Shown piece by piece: positions 2,773 through 28,521 of a DNA stretch of 64,000 nucleotides (position 1 is the stretch's first letter; each line of letters opens with the position of its first letter). The notes under the pieces were generated by a model that ran no database searches, was not told the DNA's origin, and was given only the letters and a program-made list of their open reading frames with translations. Source of the stretch: Mycoplasma sp. (lineage in GTDB: Bacteria; Bacillota_I; Bacilli_A; Mycoplasmatales; Metamycoplasmataceae); NCBI GenBank assembly GCA_024721275.1, contig JAMPIX010000001.1:1-64000 (forward strand), given 5' to 3'. The position numbers and the translations under genes were made by a program.

Positions 2773-2931
2773 TTTGTTACCTGAACCGCAATCAAAAACT
2801 TATCACTGAACTTCTGGTGAGAAAGGCAAAAAGAATACCGGTATTAGGGTCGATCCAGCGTTGGTGTTTATGACGTCAACATTAAACGTATGCAAACGTT
2901 CCGCCCCGGTCAACAGTCAAACTGTTGATCG
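2773..2931. other. Host flank and chimeric junction
   Basis: Mixed-GC host-like DNA runs to about 2930 and ends with 'gtcaacagtcaaactgttga', which repeats the core of the nearby palindrome arms. Immediately to the right the sequence becomes AT-rich and is in frame with dnaX. The abrupt composition change marks the junction, placed within about 15 bp of 2930. Confidence 0.7.
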
Positions 2932-4086
2932 GCCAATAAGCGAAATTACTTCATTTTTATTTATGCTAATATCTTCATTCTCAAAATTAGTTTCTTCTTC
3001 ATAATTTTCAGATTTTGGATTTGCTACCTTAACTAAAGATAAAATTAATACATTTATATTTGTATTAGATTTTTTAAATTTAAGCATCAAGCTAACTAAC
3101 TCATCCATAATTTTGTATGAGTAATCCAAATCAATTTTTATTTCGTTTATGTCTTGCATTGTTAAAAATGATATTAATGATTGATCATGTGTTTTTTCAT
3201 AAATAACAAATTCTTTAATTATTTCTAAAGTGTTATTTATAAATCAATTAATATTTGCACCGTTGTCCATTAAATCATTTAATAAATGTAAAACTTTATC
3301 AACTTTACCTGCATAAAGATAGTTAAGAATTGTAATTAAATTATGTTTTGACACTAAGCCAAAAACTTGTGAAACAGAATCAAAAGTTAATATTCCGTTT
3401 GAATAAGAAATTACTTGTTCTGCAATTGATAAAGCATCTCTCATTCCACCATGAGCTAATCTACTTATTAACTTTAATGACTCTTGATCATATTTAACAT
3501 TTTCTAATTCAAATATTTTTGTTAATTGTTTTTCAATAATATTGTTTTGAATTCTTTTGAAATTGAATCTTTGAACTCTAGATAAAATTGTTGTTGGTAT
3601 TCTATCAGGTTCAGTTGTTGCCATTATGAAAATAACATTTGTAGGAGGTTCTTCAAGTGTTTTAAGTAATGCATTAAATGCTCCCTTTGAAAGCATATGA
3701 ACTTCATCTATTATGTAAACTTTATTTTTTGAATATGAAGGAGCAAATTTTACTTTTTCTCTTATATCTCTTATTTCACTTACACCATTATTTGAAGCAG
3801 CATCAATTTCGATTATGTCTAATGAAGATAATCTTAAAGATTCTGTACAAGGTTTACATTTTAAACATGGAGAATGATCATCATTTATATTTTCACAATT
3901 TAAAACCATAGCAAATATTTTTGCTAATGATGTTTTTCCAGTTCCTCTTGGTCCTGAAAATAAATATGCATGTCCTACTTTGTTTCTTTCAATAATATTT
4001 TTAAAGGTTGAAACAATATTGTCTTGACCTATTACTTCATTGAAATTTCTTGGTCTATATTTTCTATATAACGTCTTATAACTCAT
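2932..4086 (-). CDS. dnaX: DNA polymerase III subunit gamma/tau, 3' end cut at junction
   Basis: Clamp-loader ATPase that loads the DnaN sliding clamp. The N-terminus carries the DnaX box YRKYRP, Walker A GPRGTGKT at residues 45-52, a four-cysteine zinc site (Cys64, 74, 77, 80), the Walker B region DEVHML and the sensor segment ATTEPDRIP. The ORF needs TGA read as Trp at about 3243 to continue into the C-terminal region. Coding continues to about 2932, where the frame runs into host-like DNA, so the last residues before the stop near 2917 are not genuine. About 385 residues are present, whereas Mollicute DnaX proteins are usually longer. The true end is missing because of the chimeric join. 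It lies downstream of pmbA on the same strand with a 71-bp gap. Confidence 0.93.
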
Positions 4087-9125: not shown

Positions 9126-9163
9126 TTAGGTAAACTATAAATTATTATATAAAGGTGTTTATT

Positions 9164-12079
9164 ATGAAAAAGAAAAAAGCAATATTAAATTTTGGATTGG
9201 CTACAATGACAGCCGGTTCAGCAGCTGTGGTTGGTGTTGTCGCAGCTTGTGGTACCTCATCAGGTTCTGATCAATCTGATCAAGTAAAAATAGATGGTTC
9301 TAGTCAAAAAGACATTTTAAGTGCATTAAAATTAGTACCAAGTAAAGATTCAAAAATCCCAACTCGACCAAGTGATAAAATCACTACAGTTAATGGATTG
9401 GAAAATGTTATTATTAAAATTACAAAATGAAAAGTTGATGATTCTTTAGGAATATTAACATTTACTGCAAATATCTCTAAGGAAGGTTTAACTGCTAAAG
9501 ATATAGATATTACAACATTATGAAAAAAAGCTGATTCTTCTACACCAGAAGCAAATCAAAATCAAGATGCTTCACAATCTAATGAAAATAATCCTGTAGT
9601 TCCTTCTACAGTAAAACAAGTAACAAATAACAACGCTCCTGTAGCTAATACAAATGTTGCTCCGGTATCTCAAACAACAAATAACAATGCTCCTGTAGCT
9701 AATACAAATGTTGCTCCGGTATCTCAAGCAGCAAATAACAATGCTCCTGTAGCTAATACAAATGTAGTTCCAGTGTCACAAACAATTGGCACAATTCAAA
9801 TATCAAATGATTCAACAAATTCATTAAGACCTTTATGACATGTTAATGGTTTAACAACAATTGCAACACAGGATGAATTAAATAAACAACTTAACCAATT
9901 GCAAACATTAGCACACTTTTCATTACCTGCAGGCGGATACGGAGTGAAACCTCCTAGAATGTTAAGAATAACTGGTGCTGAAGGACATGCTACAATAACA
10001 CCTATTAGTGATGTTTCAGGATTATTTACAATCTCAATGTCTAAAATTTCTATAGATTCAAATGGTAATCAAAGAATAGTGGATTTACCTAATATAGCTA
10101 ACGCAGCAGTTAACAATGGTGATCATGTGCTTTTAAGAGTTAGAGCAAAAGATGGATCAAATGTTAATGGTGCTAAAGTAGGAATTTTTAATTATACCGT
10201 TGGAGGATTATCACTTGGTTCACAAGGACAAGCTCAACAAGTGAGTGGAGAAAATAATCCATCAATAATAAATGATGGTGAAAATGGATTATTATGAGGA
10301 AGATTAAGATCAGGACAAGCTACATTAGATGATTATAAAAAAATAATTTCTTTATTCAAACAAGGTGGAATAGTTCAAAGTAAAATTGGTGAATCCTTAA
10401 AAAATGAAATTAGATCATTCAAAATTCCAACAAGCTTAGGAGATAGGGTTCATAAAGCGCATAATCCAATGCCAAATCACGTTGAAGCTCCTTTCATAGA
10501 TATTACAACAGCAAATTCAAGTGTTACAAACTACGATGTAACAAAATATCCATATGCAACACTAGCGTTCTCTCAAATTGCAAGTAAATCTGGATGAGAT
10601 GAATCAAATTGAGGTGGATCAACACCAATGTTTGATAATGGAGCAGCTGGAGAAACTGCTAATACAGATTACATAGGTCTTATAAACAAAATTAGAGACG
10701 CAGGCGGAGATGTTGCATTAAGTTTTGGTGGTTCGGGAGGAAAAGCTTTCTGAGAAAAAGCAGATCCTATTGTAGCAGCAGCGCAACTATATAATATGGT
10801 TAAAGAATATAAAATTACTAGAATTGATTATGATATTGAAACACCAGGTACTCAAGATCAAGATGCTTTAAATGTTTTATCTATGGCTACAGCATTAGTA
10901 CAACAAAAAATTGCTGCAGATGCAGTTAAAGATCCTCAACAATGAACATCTGAATTGCAAGTTCAAATAACAGCCGCAACAGATACTGATGGTATGACAC
11001 CATATGCTGGATTAAGATCTATTAATACTATGCTTGATAACGGAGTTAAAATTCATTCAATTAATGCTATGGCAATGATGATGAAAAAAACTGATGCTGC
11101 TGGTCAACCACTTCCAACACTATGAGATAAAGTTCGTTCTGGAGTAATGACATTAGAGCAACAAGTTGCTTCTATATATCAAAAACATGGATTAAATTTA
11201 ACTGAAGAGCAAATATGAAGCAGTTTAGGATTTACATTTAATATTTCATCTGATACATGAAAAGGTGAAATAATGTCTCAAGCTGATCTAGATAGTATGA
11301 AAACATTTGCACGTGAAAAAAAATTAGCATTTGTTGGTTACTGATCAATTAATGATGATAATGCAGATGGAGTTCTTGGTCACGGAACACCTGCAGGAGC
11401 AAATAATTTATACGGTTCAGGAGTTGTTCAAAATACTCTTCATGATACATTCGATAATATTCAAGATCAACCTATACAAGAAGTTCAACTTTCAAATTCA
11501 AATAATTTACTTGCTCAAAAACTAAATAATTATTATGGTAATACATCAAATACAAAGAAAACATTAGTTGATGCTATGAATAATGCAAAAACACCTGCAG
11601 AAAATAGAAAAAGTAACGCTGGTGTATTCTTAGCTCATCCAGACAACATAATTATTGATATAAGTTCTGTAGATGGTACTAAACATATGTATAGAGCAAA
11701 ATGAGAAGCATCAAAACCACCTTCTCAAGTGACTGCAGATAATGCTGTCTGAGAAGATTTAGGTTCTGTACCAAGTGATGCATCTATAAATGTTGCTTTA
11801 GGAATAGATAACCTTAAAGCAAAAGCGCTTGCAGATGCACATACATCACCATTTATTTATACATATAACGAAGATGGAACAAAAATCAATTCTGGTGTTT
11901 CTAATGGTTTTGAATCATACTTATGAGGACACTCATCAATCGAACTTTTCATGAAAGACAAAGCATATATAAAAGATGATATAGTTAATTTTGATGGAGC
12001 ATTATGAAAAGCAAAATACTGGGTAAATAAATCTCCAAGTGTTGATCCAGCACCATGAATGAAAATAGCTGATTTATAA
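9164..12079 (+). CDS. Secreted lipoprotein with GH18 chitinase-like domain and chitin-binding module
   Basis: A 971-residue surface lipoprotein. A signal peptide ends in a lipobox with Cys29 (GVVAAC). Next comes a lipoprotein-17-type repeat domain (VNGLENVIIKITKW...LTFTANISKEGL), a spacer with three copies of a 16-residue NNNAPVANTNVAPVSQ unit, and a GH18-type barrel. The barrel shows the SxGG strand (S520-FGG) and the catalytic DxDxE as D555-Y-D557-I-E559, with the more distal first Asp of DxxDxDxE replaced by Thr. The C-terminus has two aromatic-rich CBM5/12-like segments (MYRAKWEASKPP... and ALWKAKYWVNKSP...). Chitin hydrolysis or binding at the cell surface is inferred. The N-terminal ATG at 9164 is chosen over GTG 9155 because of the Shine-Dalgarno and signal peptide. 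The frame is open throughout using TGA as Trp. Confidence 0.85.
9621..9782 (+). repeat. Three 48-bp coding repeats in the chitinase linker
   Basis: Three nearly identical 48-bp units encode NNNAPVANTNVAPVSQ-type 16-residue repeats between the lipoprotein domain and the catalytic domain. Such in-frame repeats can change copy number by slippage and lengthen or shorten the stalk that presents the enzyme. Confidence 0.8.
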
Positions 12080-12234: not shown

Positions 12235-15200
12235 ATGAAATTTAAAATCTTATATTAAATCTTGGATTAGCAACAATGACAGCTAGTACAACAGCTGTTG
12301 TTGGTGTTGTTGCATCTTGTGATGTAACTACAAATTCAGATCAAAGCAAATTAGATGGAGCTAGTCAAGCAAATGTATTGCAAGCACTTGGATTGCAACC
12401 AAGTCAAGACTCAGCAATTCCAGCACAACCTGCTGATAAAATTGCAACAGTAAACGGATTAGAAAATGTTGTTATTAAAATTACAAAATGAACACCAAAT
12501 ACAAATACAGGTGTATTATCATTTACAGCAACACTTTCTAAAGAAGGGTTAGTTTCAAAAGATATTAAAATTACAACATCATGAAAAAGTGGTGATACAC
12601 CACCAGCAACTGAAAATGGAAAAGTTGCATTAGCTGATAATCATACAATAGCAGGTAAATTAATTACTTCTGTAGCAACAGATCAATTTACTGTTGTTAT
12701 TCCAACAGGAACAACTTTAGGAACAACAGATGATATGATATTATCACTTATTAAATCAAAATTTGTTGGAGTTGGAGAACTAAGAGTTAATGCAAAGAAT
12801 CCATCAAATCAAGCTCCGACAGGAGACATATCTACTCCTGGTGGACCATATGAATATGTAATTCAAGATCCAGGTAAAGGTGGTAAAACAGATACTGCAA
12901 CATTAGCTATTACAGTTAAAAGTGATGTACCAAATACAGATGGAAATGTTCAGTTAAATTCAGGAGCAGCTATTACCGGAACAGGAAAACAATTTAGCGT
13001 TGAACTTCCAGTAGGAGCTAGTGTTGGAACAGATCCAACTATGATTAACGGATTAATTGCTTCACAATTCAATGGTGTTGGTCCGCCATCTGCAGCAGTT
13101 AAAGCTGGAAGTCAAGCATTACCTACATGAGCAATTTCAGCACCTGGAACATTCCATTATATTATTACCGACCCAGGTCAAGGTGATGGAGCAACAGCAG
13201 ATAATGCTGAATTAACAATTGTAGTTAAAGGACAAGATCCAATTCCTACACTAGGTGGTAGAATTGATGTAGTAAATGATTCAACAGATCGTTTAAGACC
13301 ATTATGACATGTTGATGGAATGACAACAATTATTACACCAGATGAGTTAAACAAACAACTTAATGCTTTACAAACATTAGCACACTTTTCATTACCAGCA
13401 GGTGGATATGGAGTACAAGTACCTAGAATGTTAGAAGTAACTGGTACAGAGGGTCATGCAAACATAGCACCTATTAGTGATCCTTCAGGATTATTTACAC
13501 TTTCAATGCAAAAAATAGTTACTAATGAAAAAGATGGAACTACTAAAATAGTAGATTTACCTAATATTGCTGATACAGATGTTAAAAATGGTGATCAAGT
13601 ACTTCTAAAAATTCATGCAAATGATGGATCAACTGTTAATGGTGCATCAGTAGGAATTTACAAATTCCAAGTTGGTGGATTAGGATTTGACTTAAAAGGA
13701 CAAACTCAACAAGTTAGATCTGGAAATAGTGCAGATCCAGGACCAGAGTCAATTGATGATGGTGAAAGTGGAGCACTATGAAATAGATTAAGAGAAGGAC
13801 AAGCTACATTAGATAATTATGATAAAACAATTTCGTTATTCAAACAAGGTGGAATAGTTCAAAGTAAACTTGGTCAATCATTAAATGATAATGTTACTTC
13901 ATTCCAAATTCCAACAAGCTTAGGTGATAGAGTTCATGCAGCTAAAACACCAATGCCAAATCACGTTGAAGCTCCTTTCTTAGATATAACAACAGCACAT
14001 TCAACAGTTGCAAATTATAATGTAACAAAATATCCATATGCAACACTAGCATTTTCACAACTTCAGAAAATGAAAGGTTGAAATAAATCAACATGAGGTG
14101 GATCAACACCAATGTTTGATAATAATGTAACAAAAGAAACTGCTAATAGTGATTACATAGGTCTTATAAATAAAATTAGAGACGCAGGTGGAGATGTCGC
14201 ACTAAGTTTTGGTGGAGTAGCAGGGAAAGCTTTCTGAGAAAAAGCAGATCCGGTTGTAGCAGCAGCACAACTATATGATATTGTTAAAGAATACAAAATT
14301 ACAAGAGTTGATTACGATATTGAAACAACAGACACTCAAGACAAACACGCATTAGATGTTTTAGGAATGGCAACAGCTTTAGTACAACAAAAAATTGCAG
14401 CTGATGCAGTTAAAAATCCAGGACAATGAACATCTGAATTACAAATCCAAATAACTGCTGCAACAGATACTGATGGTATGACAGCATATGGTGGATTACA
14501 AATTATTAGCACTTTATTAGAAAATGGAGTTAATCGATGCCATGACAATGATGATGAAAGATGCTGATGCTAGTCCAACATTATGAGATAAAGTTCATTC
14601 TGGATTAATAACAGTAGAACAACAAATGGCTAAAATATATCAAGAAAACGGTATAAGTATGACTGAAGAGCAAATATGAAGTGCTTTAGGATTCACATTT
14701 AATATGTCTTCTGATACATGACCTCATGAAATAATGAACCAAGCAGATCTAGATAGTATGAAGGCATTTGCCCGTGAGAAAAAATTAGCATTTGTTGGTT
14801 ACTGATCAATTGGTGACGATAATACAGATGGAGTTGCCGGTCATGGAGCACCTGAAGGAGCCAATAAGTTTTATGGTACAGGGGCTGTTCAAGCTACTCT
14901 TGGTGATACATTTAATGGTATGCAAGATGAACTAGTACAGGAAATTCAAATTTCAAATCCAACTGATGTTGTTATTAAAACTTAAATGAATATTACGCTG
15001 GAGATACAAATCCAATGGGTGCATTAGTTAATCAAATTAATGATGCAAAAACTCCAGAAGAAAATAGACAAGCAAATAAAGGAGTATTCCGTGCAATTGG
15101 TGGTTCTATAATTCTTGATGTAAGTAAATTAGATGGTACAACACACATGTATAGAGCAAAATGAGAAGCATCATCACCTCCTTCACAAACAATAGCAACA

Positions 15201-15545
15201 GATGATGTTTGAGAAGATTTAGGTACATTACCAAGTAATGAATCTATGAATGTAGCATTAGGTGTAGTTAATCTTCAAGCAAAAGAACGTGCTGATGCGA
15301 ATACATCACCATTGATTTATACATACAATGAAGATGGAACACCAATCGATAGTGGAAATACTGAATCTAAAAGTTGAAACGAATATTCATGAGGTAATAT
15401 ATTGATAGCAGCATATGTGCCTATGAAAATTTATTGAGGTGGAGACATAGTTCAATTTGAAAGCGGATTATGACAAGCAAAACAATGAACAAATAAATCT
15501 CCAGTTGAAGCTAATACATTATGAATAAGAATTGGTTCAATATAA
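12235..15545 (+). pseudogene. Second GH18 chitinase-like lipoprotein, frame broken at three places
   Basis: A close paralogue of the preceding gene, about 1,100 codons if repaired. It has a lipobox signal peptide (GVVASC), the lipoprotein-17-like domain, two tandem domains of about 85 residues (12618-12930 and 12942-13230; each ends with a Y-E-Y/F-H-Y...DPGxG motif) in place of the NNNAPV repeats, and the GH18 domain with SFGG and VDYDIE, then CBM-like C-terminal segments. The frame is interrupted by a missing A in the signal peptide (near 12245), an 11-bp deletion at 14532 that removes the K-I-H-S equivalent, and a missing A in a four-A run at 14977-14980. Each is deduced by aligning to the intact copy. 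It may be a decaying gene, a phase-variable gene or uncorrected assembly error between paralogues. Confidence 0.75.
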
Positions 15546-21861: not shown

Positions 21862-22881
21862 TTATTTTTTAAAAAACAAGAATCCTTTTTTTTGTTTTTT
21901 AAAATTTTTAGCATCGAAAAAATACTTTGGATTTTTTAATACTGCTTCTGGTCTAGATAATATTATGTTTTTATTAGTGAATCTTTTTTTATGTTTTGCA
22001 TTATCATGTGTAGCAATAATTACAAAATCTGCATTGTTAATATCTTTTTCTGATAATTTATTGTCAACTGTACTTCCATGAGTTTCAACTTTTATTTTAT
22101 ATCCTAATTCTTTTGCTGTTGATTCTAATTTTTCAGCTGCTAAATAGGTTAAAGCTATTCCGGTTGAACAAGAAGTTATTGCAACTATTTTTTTTGCAAA
22201 TGTTAATCCATCTTCTCCTGCTTCAACTTTTTCTATTCTTTTTTTAATATGTTTATTAATTTCATTTTTCTTTTTCTGATTTTTACTTTCATCTTTTGAT
22301 TTAAAATTAGATAAACTATATGAATTACCTTTAAGAGATAGCAACATTAAATCATCAACATCAATTCCTCATTCATTTAAAATGTATTCATATGTTAATT
22401 GTTGATATCAATGAATATCCATTTTTGATCCAGTTTTAATATCTAATAAATATAATTTATTTTTTTCTTTATCTCAAAATAATCTATCAATTGTTCCGCA
22501 TATATTTAATGATTTTGAATATAGACTAAATTCACTAGCTAATATTTCCATATTTGAATTATCATTTATGAATTGAATATAATTTTTACAATAACTACTA
22601 TATTTTCCAATAGGTTTTAATTTATTATTTTTATCAAACTCTTCTGTTCACTTATGAACTTCTGTTCCTCTTATTCTAGCTGGTGTTATTATTTTTCTAA
22701 ATCACTCTAGTTTCATTTTCTCATCAAAGTCACTGAAAAATGGTTTTATAAAATGAGTTACAGAAATAGTTATATTTCCATCAACTCTATATGTATGATC
22801 TTCTTGTTTTAACTTTAAATGTTCTTTATTTCATTTATCTATAATTTTAATTTTTTCTTTTATTGTTTTTTTATCAATCAT
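21862..22881 (-). CDS. Fusion: PD-(D/E)XK (RecB/Cas4-like) nuclease domain + PTS fructose EIIB-like domain
   Basis: A single open frame of 339 residues with two domains not normally joined. Residues 1-185 match the RecB-type nuclease fold: R-G-T-E-V-H76, a SEF strand (E117), GTID132, LLD147-I-K149 (the D-x-K catalytic pair) and W-Y-Q-Q161-L-T-Y, all intact. Residues about 230-320 form a fructose-type EIIB: VAITSC238STGIALTYLAAEKLE and VETHGSTVDNKLSEKDI. Compared with FruA next door (ACPTGIAHT), the phospho-acceptor Cys is kept but Pro and His are changed to Ser and Leu. I checked the frame codon by codon between the domains; it is open with TGA as Trp. It is separated from the upstream fru operon by a terminator. 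A PTS-regulated nuclease, or a fusion in which EIIB is only a scaffold, are both possible. Confidence 0.75.
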
Positions 22882-22950: not shown

Positions 22951-22987
22951 ATAAAAAAGTGAATAACAATAATTATTCACTTTTTAA
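22951..22987 (-). terminator. Terminator of the fru operon
   Basis: AAAAAGTGAATAA and TTATTCACTTTTT form a 13-bp stem around a short AT-rich loop, with T runs. It lies after the fruA stop on the minus strand and before the nuclease-EIIB gene. Confidence 0.85.
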
Positions 22988-23009: not shown

Positions 23010-25082
23010 TTAAGCTTTAACTGTTTCTAATTCCAATTTACCTTTTTTAATATCTCTCATTCTTCATAAACCAAGAACAGTTCCTGTTGTCGCCATTCCT
23101 GCTATTAATGAAGTTAGCATAAATAGAATTCCCATTCCTATTTCTGCTCCATTTGAATTGAATAAATATGATTTAAATAATGAAATTACTATTATTCCAC
23201 CATGTGGTGCTGAAACACCAACATGTAATAATCCTGATAACAATCCAGCAACAGCTGATCCAATCATTAATGAAGGAATTGTACGTTTAGGATCTTTTGC
23301 AGCAAATGGAATTGCTCCCTCAGTTATAAAGAAAAGTCCTAATAATCAGTTTGCTCTTGATGATTCAATTTCTACTTGACTTCATGCTTTTTTTCCAAAT
23401 ATTAAGTTTGAAAAAGCTATTCCTAATGGTGGTGTCATACCAGCAATCATTGTTGCACCCATTATTTCATAATCTGTATTATCTGGATTTGATCCACTTA
23501 TTAATCCAACAGCTAAAACATAAGCAACTTTATTTACTGGACCACCCATATCAAATGCCATCATTAATCCTATTATTGTTGTTAATAAAATAATTAATCC
23601 AGCATCTTCCATATCAGTTAATCCAAGTTTTAATCCGTATGCAAAATATGCTAATGGAATTTGGAATGCGAACATTGCAATTCCAGTTAATAATGCTGTT
23701 GTGATTGGCATTGCAACAATATCAACAATTCCTCTAAATGTTTTGTTAACTTTAAAGAAAACATATTTTCTCATTATTACAACAGATGCAGCAGCTAAAT
23801 AACCACCAACCATTGCTCCAATGAAACCTGACCCTGCAGATAGAACACCTTGATCTATACCAGGTGTTGCTCAACCTCATAAGTTTGCTCATCCACTAGT
23901 TGATGAACCGTCATAAAGTAGACCGTTTATTGAACTAGCCGATGCAATAAAGCCGGCAAAAAATCCTGGCATTAACCCTTCTGATCCAACTATTGAATAT
24001 GCTACATATCCACCTAAAACAGGAACAAACATTGTTAATCCAATTTTTCCAAGTCCACTAAATCATCTTGCAAGTCCTCTTGTTACTCCAAGAGTTCCAC
24101 CTGAATTACCAGTATCAATTAAAAATCCTATTCCTAATAAAATACCTCCAGCTATTATAAATGGAAGCATTCTTGAAACTCCACCCATTAAAGCTCTATA
24201 TACATTTTTAAATTCAGATCATGAATATTCACCACTTGCAGTTGCAGAATTAGATCCGTTAGATGTAGTTGCAGAACTTGCTTTAATTATTTTTGTTTTT
24301 CCTTCAGTTATTAATTTAACTGGATTTTTTATAGCAGCTGATGTACCAACTTGGATAACTTCTTTACCATTAAATCTACCCATATTATCAATACCTTTAT
24401 CTATTGCTAAAACAATAATATCAGCTTCATCAATTTCATTTTGAGTTAGAGCATTATCAGTTGTTCTACCTTGTGTTTCAACTTTTATTTGATAACCAAG
24501 TTTTTTTGCTCCTTCTTCTAATTTTTCAGCAGCCATATATGTATGCGCAATTCCAGTAGGACAAGCTGTAACTGCAACAACTTTTTTACTATTTGCTGAT
24601 TTAACTATTGCTGGTTTCGAAATTTCATTTTTTTCTTCAACATTAATTAAAGTATTTAATAATTGATCCTTTGTTTTTGCTTTTGCCAGGTTTTTATTTA
24701 TTTCTGGATTCATAAATGTTTTAGCTAAGGTTTTTAAAACTTCAACTTGTTTTTCTTTTTCTTTATTATTAAGCGCAATTGTAAAAATATATTTTACCGG
24801 CTTATTATCTAAAGAATTTCACTCAACACCATCTTTATATCTTGCAATCAAAATAACATTTTCTAAAACTGTATCACTTTGTGCATGAGGTATTGCAATT
24901 TCATTTCCTATACCAGTTGAAAAATCTAATTCTCTTTTTAATAAAGCTTCTTTAAATTTAGATGCAGATTCTATAAAAGAATTTTTTTCTAAATGTTCAG
25001 ATATCTCATTAAAAATCTCAGTTTTATCATTCGATTTAAGATTTAAAATTATTGCCTTTTTTGATAATAATTTTTCTATCAT
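23010..25082 (-). CDS. fruA: PTS fructose-specific EIIABC
   Basis: Membrane permease that imports fructose (or mannitol-like polyols) and phosphorylates it to fructose-1-phosphate; 690 residues in EIIA-EIIB-EIIC order. EIIA contains the phospho-His in EIAIPH66A; EIIB has the phospho-Cys in VVAVTAC174PTGIAHTYMAAE with the partner VETQG; EIIC has about eight or more membrane segments, including the substrate motif AFDMGGPVNKVAY and GAIPFAAKDP. The frame is complete with TGA-Trp. It is followed by a terminator and preceded by fruK 61 bp upstream on the same strand, so fruK-fruA is one operon that turns fructose into fructose-1,6-bisphosphate for glycolysis. Confidence 0.95.
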
Positions 25083-25143: not shown

Positions 25144-26064
25144 TTATTTGATTTCTTCACATTTTGTATTTAAATATAATTCATCAACTATGTCTTTTGT
25201 TCCTATCGAAATAGAAGATGCTGTTGCTGCACCACAAGCATTAGAATATTTGAAAGATTCTTTTATATTACTTTTTGAACTAATGTATTTATAAACAAAA
25301 CCTGATAGCATTGAATCTCCTGCACCAGAACTATTTATTAATTTTATTTTTAATGGTTCAGTAAATAATTTAATTTCATTAGAAAAGAAATAAGCTCCTT
25401 TATCAGAATCAGATACTATTAAATTTTTAGCACCCATTTCTAAAATCTTATTTGCATATTTTTTTATATCATCAACATTTTTTATTTTTGTATTAAAAAA
25501 AGTTTCTAATTCTTCTCTATTAGGTTTTATTAAAAAGGGCTTATATTTTAATAATTCAAGCATATTCTTTGATAAGTCATAAACAATTTCTGCATTCTTT
25601 TTTAACAATAAGGAAGATATATTATTAATTATATTTTCATCTAATCCTTTCATTGTTGATCCCATAATCATAACAGTGTCATTTTCTTTTACATTTTCTT
25701 TTAAAAAATCTAAAAGTTCATTTTCTAAGTTTCTATTTAGATTTTCTGTATTTGTTAAAAATTCATATGTTTGATCAAACGTTAGTTTTACATTTATTCT
25801 AACTTCATTGTTTGTATTGAAATTTACATAGTCAATATTTTCTTTTTTTAATTTATCTTCAAGTGTTTTTCCAGTACTTTTACCAGAAAGTATTATTGCT
25901 TTATTTTTAATTCCAAGTCTTGTTAATAAAACTGAAGCATTAATTCCTTTTCCTCCATAAAATAAGTGTGCATCATCTGTTCTATTTGTATTTAGTATTT
26001 TCTTTTTATCTAAAAAATTCATAAAATAATCTAGAGTTGGATTCAATGTAATTGTGTAAATCAT
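25144..26064 (-). CDS. fruK: 1-phosphofructokinase
   Basis: PfkB-family sugar kinase, 306 residues, converting fructose-1-phosphate to fructose-1,6-bisphosphate. It starts MIYTITLNPTLDYFM, the conserved N-terminal strand of FruK, has the GGKGINASVLLTRLG sugar-binding segment, and the PfkB signature NSSGAGDSMLSGF with the catalytic Asp. It is first in the fruK-fruA operon. A 14-bp inverted repeat ATATTC-CT-GAATAT at 26080-26093 lies in the leader and may be an operator. Confidence 0.93.
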   Translation of the reverse strand: MIYTITLNPTLDYFMNFLDKKKILNTNRTDDAHLFYGGKGINASVLLTRLGIKNKAIILSGKSTGKTLEDKLKKENIDYVNFNTNNEVRINVKLTFDQTYEFLTNTENLNRNLENELLDFLKENVKENDTVMIMGSTMKGLDENIINNISSLLLKKNAEIVYDLSKNMLELLKYKPFLIKPNREELETFFNTKIKNVDDIKKYANKILEMGAKNLIVSDSDKGAYFFSNEIKLFTEPLKIKLINSSGAGDSMLSGFVYKYISSKSNIKESFKYSNACGAATASSISIGTKDIVDELYLNTKCEEIK

Positions 26065-26631: not shown

Positions 26632-27267
26632 GTGAAAATAGCAAAGAATATAATTATTATAGGTGGACCAATAGCAGCAGGAAAATCAACTGTTGCTGGA
26701 TTACTGAAATATAAAAATATTCAAGAATTAAATGATAATGATGAATTGCAAAAATTATTACTTGAATCATCAATTTCTGGAAACAAAATGGGAAGAATTC
26801 TTTTCCAACTTGATTTGATGATTGAAAAGCATAAAGTTTATGAAAAACACGCAAGAGATAATAAAGAAATAATTGTTTTTGATAGATCAATTATTGAAGA
26901 CTCATTATTTGCAAAAATGACACTTGAAGAGTATCCTAATTTTTATAAATATTATGTTCAAATTTTTAATGAAAATATAAGACAAATGAAAGAAGAAATT
27001 GGATTTCCTTTTATTTATTTCTTATTAGATATTACTTGAGATACTTTTAAAAATAGAATTTTCAAAAGAAATCGTGAGGAAGAAATTAAAAATTGAGAGT
27101 TAAATGAAAACTATTATAAAAATCTTTTAGAAATTTATGTTCCTACAATAGAAAAATTATTATTAAAGCACAATATAAGATATGTAAAAATTGATGCTAA
27201 TGAAAAAAATGCATTGGAAATTAAAGAGGAAGTGGAAGGAGTTTTAGAAAGTTATGGAATTAAATAA
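26632..27267 (+). CDS. Deoxynucleoside kinase, paralogue 1
   Basis: Cytosolic kinase of the deoxyguanosine/deoxyadenosine kinase family (211 residues) that phosphorylates salvaged deoxynucleosides with ATP. The P-loop is GGPIAAGKST; the catalytic and specificity motif is FDRSIIEDSLFA; then the lid region IFKRNREEEIKN. It starts with GTG, preceded by a GAAGTTGAG Shine-Dalgarno-like stretch. The first of three tandem paralogues, it overlaps the next gene by 14 bp. Confidence 0.85.
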
Positions 27268-27871
27268 TTTAATAATTATCGGTGGTCAAATTTCTGCTGG
27301 TAAAAGTACATTAATAGAAAAATTAGAATTACCTTTTGTTCCAGAACTAGACGAAAATAATCCTATTCAAAAATTAATACTTAAAGCAACATATACTAAA
27401 TATAATCTTGCTCCCATCATTGTCGAAATGTATTTTTTGAAAATTAGAGAAAAGTATTATAAAAAACATGCAGCTAATAAAACAACTACTTTATTAGATA
27501 GATCAATTTTTGAAAGCTTATGATTCGCTAAGAAAAATCTACCTGAATCTGACAAGAAGTTTTTTAGAAATTACTGACAAGAAAATGTTGAAAGTTTGGT
27601 AAAAGAATTTGGTAAACCAAAATTATATTTATTACTTGTTTGTGATTGAGATACTTTCAAGAAGAGAATACATAAAAGAAGTAGAAAAATTGAAATTGAA
27701 AACTTCAATAAAAATGCAACATTTTTTCAGGAACACATTTTAAATTATCAAAAGGATATCAAAAAGATATTAGACAAATTTGAAATTAATTATAAAGTTA
27801 TAGATACTTCAAATATGAACGAAGAAGAAGTTTATGAAGTCTCTAAAAAATATATAGATGAGGTTAAATAA
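27254..27871 (+). CDS. Deoxynucleoside kinase, paralogue 2
   Basis: 205 residues, P-loop GGQISAGKST, DR-motif LLDRSIFESLWFA and lid RIHKRSRKIEIEN. It diverges from its neighbours in the substrate-facing LWFA and in the P-loop Gln, which may mean a different base preference. Its start overlaps paralogue 1, and its stop shares a base with the ATG of paralogue 3 (TAATG). It uses TGA for all its tryptophans. Confidence 0.85.
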
Positions 27872-28521
27872 TGAGTGAAATAAAATATAGTAATTCAATT
27901 ATTATTGGTGGACCAATTGCTGTAGGAAAATCAACATTAACAAGCTCATTGTCAAAGAAATTCGGATGAACAGAAGTTCCAGAATTAGATGAAAAATCTG
28001 AATTAACAAATTTAGTTTTAAACAGTTTATACACAGGACAAAGACTTAATCCTGCAACAATTCAATCTTTCTTTTTAGGTAATAGATATAACAGATATAA
28101 AAAATATGCAAACGGAATGATTACTACTATTTTTGATAGAGGTATTTTAGAGGATGAAATTTTTGCAAAACATGTAATGGTTTCAGAACCTAAATATTAT
28201 GAGTATTATAAAACTTTATTAAAAAGTATTACTGAACGTATGTTTGAAAATTTAGGAAGACCTAAACTTTATGTTTTTCTTGAAATTAATTGGGAAACTT
28301 TTAAAGAAAGAATATTTAAAAGAGATAGGTTACAAGAGATAACAAACTTTTCAAAAAATGAACAATATTTTAAAGATCTTTTAAATGACTATAATAATAA
28401 ATTTGAAAAAATATTAGATAGATGGAAAATAAAATATGTAAGGATTAATACAAATGACAAATCAGAAGAAGAAGTTTTTAAAGAACTAGAAATAATTTTA
28501 GAAGAGAAAGGAATTAGTTAA
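27871..28521 (+). CDS. Deoxynucleoside kinase, paralogue 3
   Basis: 216 residues. P-loop GGPIAVGKST, DR-motif FDRGILEDEIFA, lid RIFKRDRLQEITN. Two of its three tryptophans are encoded by TGG, unlike the two paralogues. The start ATG shares a base with the previous stop. purA follows 2 bp after the stop, so the kinases and the purA-purB genes probably form one nucleotide-supply operon. Confidence 0.85.

Follow-up and report, generated by a model that had tools for sequence, protein, structure and literature searches.

A predicted MGME1/RecE-like exonuclease and a diverged fructose-type PTS EIIB domain in a single reading frame of a Mycoplasma genome

Why should a PTS EIIB domain stand at the end of a DNA exonuclease? 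The question arises from a 64,000-nucleotide stretch of Mycoplasma sp. DNA (the window), in which a sequence-only reading had described two such domains in one frame. The observation is confirmed: window positions 21862-22881 hold, on the minus strand, a single open reading frame of 339 amino acids in genetic code 4 (TGA=Trp), and each half has its own profile matches. Six TGA codons fall between W17 and W171, and a table 11 translation breaks the gene up; code 4 is nevertheless correct, because the flanking serS and fruA genes are likewise whole only when TGA is read as Trp. The gene and its parts are as follows:

21862..22881, minus strand: fusion gene, 339 amino acids plus stop, code 4; open frame with coding codon use and no start in codons 181-334
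22222..22881, minus strand: predicted MGME1/RecE-like PD-(D/E)XK exonuclease domain, residues 1 to about 220 (PHROG 298, MGME1 profile match, catalytic residues)
22195..22221, minus strand: short linker, residues 221-229, joining the helix at 198-220 to the EIIB, whose first strand is at 231; contains no start codon
21913..22194, minus strand: predicted fructose-type PTS EIIB domain, residues 230-323 (TIGR00829, PDB relatives, AlphaFold2 model)
22168..22170, minus strand: codon of the phospho-acceptor Cys238, placed by the EIIB alignment
22150..22152, minus strand: codon of Leu244, which is His in 30/30 comparison EIIBs (EIIB alignment)

The frame runs through the junction. With a codon model built from 18 neighbouring genes, frame 0 scored above zero in every segment except residues 76-105 (-0.04), the join included, and over residues 181-255 it was clearly positive while the other two, riddled with stops along the gene, were negative. 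A missed frameshift or stop near residues 185-230 had been considered in the sequence-only reading, but both the codon scores and the frames show frame 0 to be coding across the join. Inspection of codons 181-334 found no ATG, GTG, TTG or CTG, which leaves the EIIB half without a start codon of its own.

Residues 1 to about 220 are, as judged from their sequence, a complete MGME1/RecE-like PD-(D/E)XK exonuclease with all of its catalytic residues. The PHROG 298 profile (exonuclease) matches residues 13-219 at E 2e-22, and a profile made from the nuclease half and four homologues has human MGME1 as a PDB match at 1.5e-8. Foldseek with the predicted model returns MGME1 (E 2e-5) and RecE (7e-4), for a nuclease half whose pLDDT is only about 32-72; this low confidence extends up to residue 180 of an AlphaFold2 model built from an alignment of 13 rows, six columns of which were misaligned, and prediction from the single sequence gave a pLDDT of 38. 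The residues of the His, Asp, D-x-K and Gln set are kept, as had been proposed: H76, D132, D147, K149 and Q160 are all present and are invariant or nearly so across homologues (31 other alignment rows, one of which is the fusion gene itself). These homologues stop at the equivalent of residues ~215-225, right after the last strand and helix, which indicates that the nuclease is complete and that the EIIB domain is a C-terminal addition. The original label of "RecB/Cas4-like" survives in part. The RecB-type core stands, but the Pfam PDDEXK_1 and Cas4 profiles both score under their cut-offs and a Cas4 identity is excluded, since the four-Cys iron-sulphur set is absent and the only cysteines of the nuclease half are C98 and C128; an MGME1/RecE-like exonuclease is the better fit. 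PADLOC matches are to Cas4 profiles only, no defence partner was seen for the fusion gene, and no evidence was found for the role in defence or DNA uptake that had been suggested for it.

Of 320 genomes in the order, 35 match the nuclease profile, and outside the present genome the match is always to a short frame standing by itself. One of these matches, in a genome of the same family (G093, E 2e-4), lies inside an apparent rsmH and is probably due to chance; with it set aside, the present genome (G000) is the only member of its family carrying the nuclease. In a sample of 395 genomes from the class, the strong matches are to stand-alone genes with products of about 195-244 amino acids, and most of the weaker, long matches (700-1350 amino acids) resemble helicase-nucleases that we take, from their length and from family knowledge, to be of the AddA/AddB type. 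Neither the order nor the class set contains the fusion outside this genome, so the related Mollicutes in which it was to be sought have not supplied a second case. Phage and plasmid searches gave no match spanning both halves, with no plasmid match covering 80% of the query, and viral-contig scans with the fusion protein and two Mollicute homologues gave no matches; a cyanophage homologue used as the viral-contig query returned 80 close copies, which served as alignment rows only. A contig scan of genomes matched only a FruA of Mycoplasmoides alvi, and no nuclease-EIIB fusion was found in the literature, within the incomplete coverage of that search. The combination is thus new among the genomes and literature searched, and each half comes from a known family.

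Elsewhere in the order, the nuclease is repeated many times in genomes of one family (f5: G026, G051, G318, G319), with a RecT gene directly after one of the G051 copies; both features suggest a prophage gene. Copy numbers of the exonuclease family reach nine or more per genome in f5 and in a further family, f6 (G177, G182). A separate 241-residue relative in G031 (L033 1471-2196) lies between ribF and truB homologues, a non-phage setting. Conserved synteny was rejected as a guide to origin, nuclease homologues being found in many contexts across relatives, and the fruA neighbourhoods of relatives have no gene order in common with the fusion locus.

The C-terminal half is readily assigned to the fructose-type EIIB family. 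NCBIfam TIGR00829 matches it with 84 bits (curated cut-off 76.85; E 7e-24) and Pfam PTS_IIB at E 5e-16, its closest PDB relatives are Lmo0427 and FruA IIB, its AlphaFold2 pLDDT is mostly 75-90, and the IIB region of the neighbouring fruA is 42% identical to it. We compared it with 30 other EIIBs, 29 of them from fruA-type frames of relatives and the neighbouring fruA and one from a second fruA of the same genome. Six positions that are invariant in this alignment are kept in the fusion (C238, G241, A243, T245, I281 and F301), as are seven further positions conserved at >=85%, so that the fused EIIB retains 13 of 14 conserved positions; a Gly column (26/30) is outside this count because both the fusion and the neighbouring FruA have a gap there. 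The phospho-accepting Cys is therefore present, as the sequence-only reading had it, and that reading was equally right about the lost His: the P-loop His, invariant in all 30 comparison EIIBs, is Leu in the fusion (L244, the sole exception among the 14 positions), and none of the 30 has Leu. The neighbouring Pro that had also been listed as lost is no loss at all, since its position varies among Pro, Ser, Ala, Thr, Val and Met. Neither a IIC nor a PRD domain was found in the fusion with Pfam or NCBIfam. By its sequence features the fused half is a diverged EIIB-fold domain, for which we make no claim of a working transporter EIIB.

Has selection maintained this domain? The fused EIIB is unplaced in the EIIB tree; its branch measures 1.01 changes per column, where the median for end branches is 0.46. 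An unconstrained domain would keep 13 of 14 positions with a probability of about 2e-5 on a branch of 1.01, or about 0.009 if the branch were 0.5. These values are suggestive only, because sites are treated as independent and the branch may cover a period, earlier than the fusion, in which the domain was constrained. In simulations with 20% of sites resampled, the EIIB half was still stop-free in only 7% of copies. Retention of the conserved sites is thus suggestive of selection on the EIIB half.

The surroundings of the gene bear on how it may be expressed and on what its product could contact. The minus-strand order is fruK, fruA, fusion gene, serS, rnpA and yidC (names from sequence), with these features upstream of the fusion gene:

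22953..22985, minus strand: AU-rich hairpin followed by a U-run, terminator-like, separating fruA from the fusion gene (stem of 14 bp, -13.9 kcal/mol, z -4.2)
23010..25082, minus strand: fruA (IIA-IIB-IIC), next to the fusion gene, used for the IIB comparison
25144..26064, minus strand: fruK-like 1-phosphofructokinase, named from sequence

The hairpin is not G+C-rich and so went unreported by a consensus terminator scan. Because this hairpin and its U-run separate the fusion gene from fruA, co-expression with fruA is not implied and the fusion gene probably has its own promoter. The genome, which is about 84% complete, encodes EI and HPr, and the neighbouring FruA includes a IIA domain; no RecT gene (PF03837) was found in it. 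Besides the neighbouring copy, two more fruA genes are present in the genome: a second at C2:355 kb, and a third at C2:239 kb (L038 2615-4496) that is broken in its EIIB just past the active-site motif.

Other parts of the window deserve mention in their own right. At positions 1 to ~2900, G+C is 40% over the first 2.8 kb, compared with 27% elsewhere, and eukaryotic-looking VWA- and repeat-type frames lead into a truncated dnaX (2800-4086); this is likely to be host DNA attached at the end of the contig. A large lipoprotein whose sequence includes a chitinase-like region (GH18-type, by eye) is intact at 9155-12079 and has a second copy, in three broken frames, at 12276-15545. Three tandem deoxynucleoside-kinase-like genes (by eye) occupy 26632-28521.

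Although each step is conjectural, we tentatively favor a model in which an exonuclease has gained a FruA-derived EIIB as a PTS docking or control module. A phage-type recombination exonuclease would have been captured and would now work without RecT, and the EIIB would have come from a fruA duplicate, the two being joined by a deletion that took out the IIA part together with the stop codon of the nuclease. The duplicate may have been the neighbouring gene: a one-residue gap common to the fused EIIB and the EIIB of the FruA next door, also seen in three other rows, is a hint in this direction, and it can be only a hint because the fused EIIB is unplaced in the tree. Once attached, the EIIB might bind the FruA IIA domain, perhaps also accepting phosphate on C238, such that PTS state or PTS location would affect the site or the strength of nuclease action. 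Efficient phosphotransfer by the fused domain is doubtful given the loss of the conserved P-loop His. Binding of the FruA IIA domain would not obviously need that residue, and with L244 in its place docking is the more probable of the two.

With the fusion known from one genome only, however, it is almost as likely that the join has no regulatory role. In this case a genome-reducing lineage would simply have lost the nuclease stop or an intervening segment, leaving the EIIB as a tail that still folds but has no function. Its absence from the other order and class genomes, the exchange of the P-loop His for Leu and a branch about twice the usual length would all be expected of such a tail, and the broken fruA at C2:239 kb indicates that fruA copies do decay in this genome. 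Harder to reconcile with idleness are the intact codon use of the EIIB half, the conserved positions that it retains despite the long branch, and its freedom from stops, which modest random change would usually have destroyed. Far less probable than either is an error of sequencing or assembly that joined two genes through a missed indel or stop. An eight-A run at codons 229-231, where the EIIB starts, and a seven-A run at codon 213 are places where one might occur, and the different kind of DNA at the contig start means that the assembly contains at least one doubtful join. Even so, the other frames offer neither a cleaner end for the nuclease nor an EIIB start past the last stop upstream of the eight-A run, so that assuming a simple missed indel does not produce two credible genes; coding codon use in frame 0 continues over the join, and the housekeeping genes of the window that served as the codon reference are all open.

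We consider it unlikely that the fusion is a PTS-gated exonuclease in the full sense, in which the EIIB would read sugar or PTS state, through FruA docking or Cys phosphorylation, and so control DNA degradation or recombination, bringing a nuclease directly under the PTS. Less likely again is a phosphorylation switch in which phosphate on C238 would turn nuclease activity on or off, as it might in defence or DNA scavenging: the P-loop residues C238, G241, A243 and T245 are kept and EI, HPr and a FruA IIA domain are encoded, but the invariant P-loop His has been replaced, and a defence setting lacks a partner and has only PADLOC's Cas4 profiles, which the cysteine content excludes. The sugar-state control proposed in the sequence-only reading is neither shown nor excluded. 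It is favored by the presence of genes for EI, HPr and a FruA with IIA and by EIIB conservation that suggests selection, and disfavored by the Leu at the P-loop His position and the want of a second genome with the fusion.

If the EIIB does control the nuclease, PTS control would extend from transporters and transcription regulators to a DNA-degrading enzyme, and would do so in an organism with few regulators. If it does not, the locus is still a clean gene fusion in a shrinking genome with both folds kept. Because both halves belong to well-studied families, simple biochemistry can test the idea of PTS control.

Among solved structures the best match to the nuclease half, in the profile search and, at low model confidence, in the fold search, is MGME1 (mitochondrial genome maintenance exonuclease 1), an exonuclease of the same PD-(D/E)XK type whose His, Asp and D-x-K residues are H180, D238, D251 and K253 (PMC6237815); H180, D238 and D251, which we take as equivalents of the catalytic residues of the fusion protein, are required for full cleavage (PMC6237815). 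Overall identity is low, at 12-16% in structural alignments, and MGME1 has no EIIB. Cas4 has the RecB-type nuclease core in common with the fusion, with weak profile matches, but the fusion is without the Cas4 four-Cys set. Phage RecE-type exonucleases (PHROG 298) belong to the same family, that of the Faecalibacterium phage FP_Brigit being 29% identical over the aligned part, and prophage-like copies occur in the relatives G026, G051 and G318. In FP_Brigit and G051 they are encoded near RecT, which the fusion genome lacks, and they end after the nuclease (about 200-220 amino acids), whereas the fusion adds an EIIB. That domain has the fold, family and P-loop Cys of the Mollicute FruA EIIBs, Lmo0427 (2m1z) and FruA IIB (5dle, 2r4q), but the comparison EIIBs, which come from FruA-type transporters, all have His in the C-x-x-G-x-A-H-T motif where the fusion has Leu. 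As the sequence-only reading noted, PTS domains fused to regulators are known: MtlR (PMC6148471) and Mga (PMC11537053) carry an EIIB-like domain on a non-transport protein, as the fusion does, and there the domain senses PTS state, which makes them the precedent for placing proteins other than transporters under PTS control. MtlR and Mga are transcription regulators with PRD, whereas the partner in the fusion is a nuclease and no PRD accompanies it.
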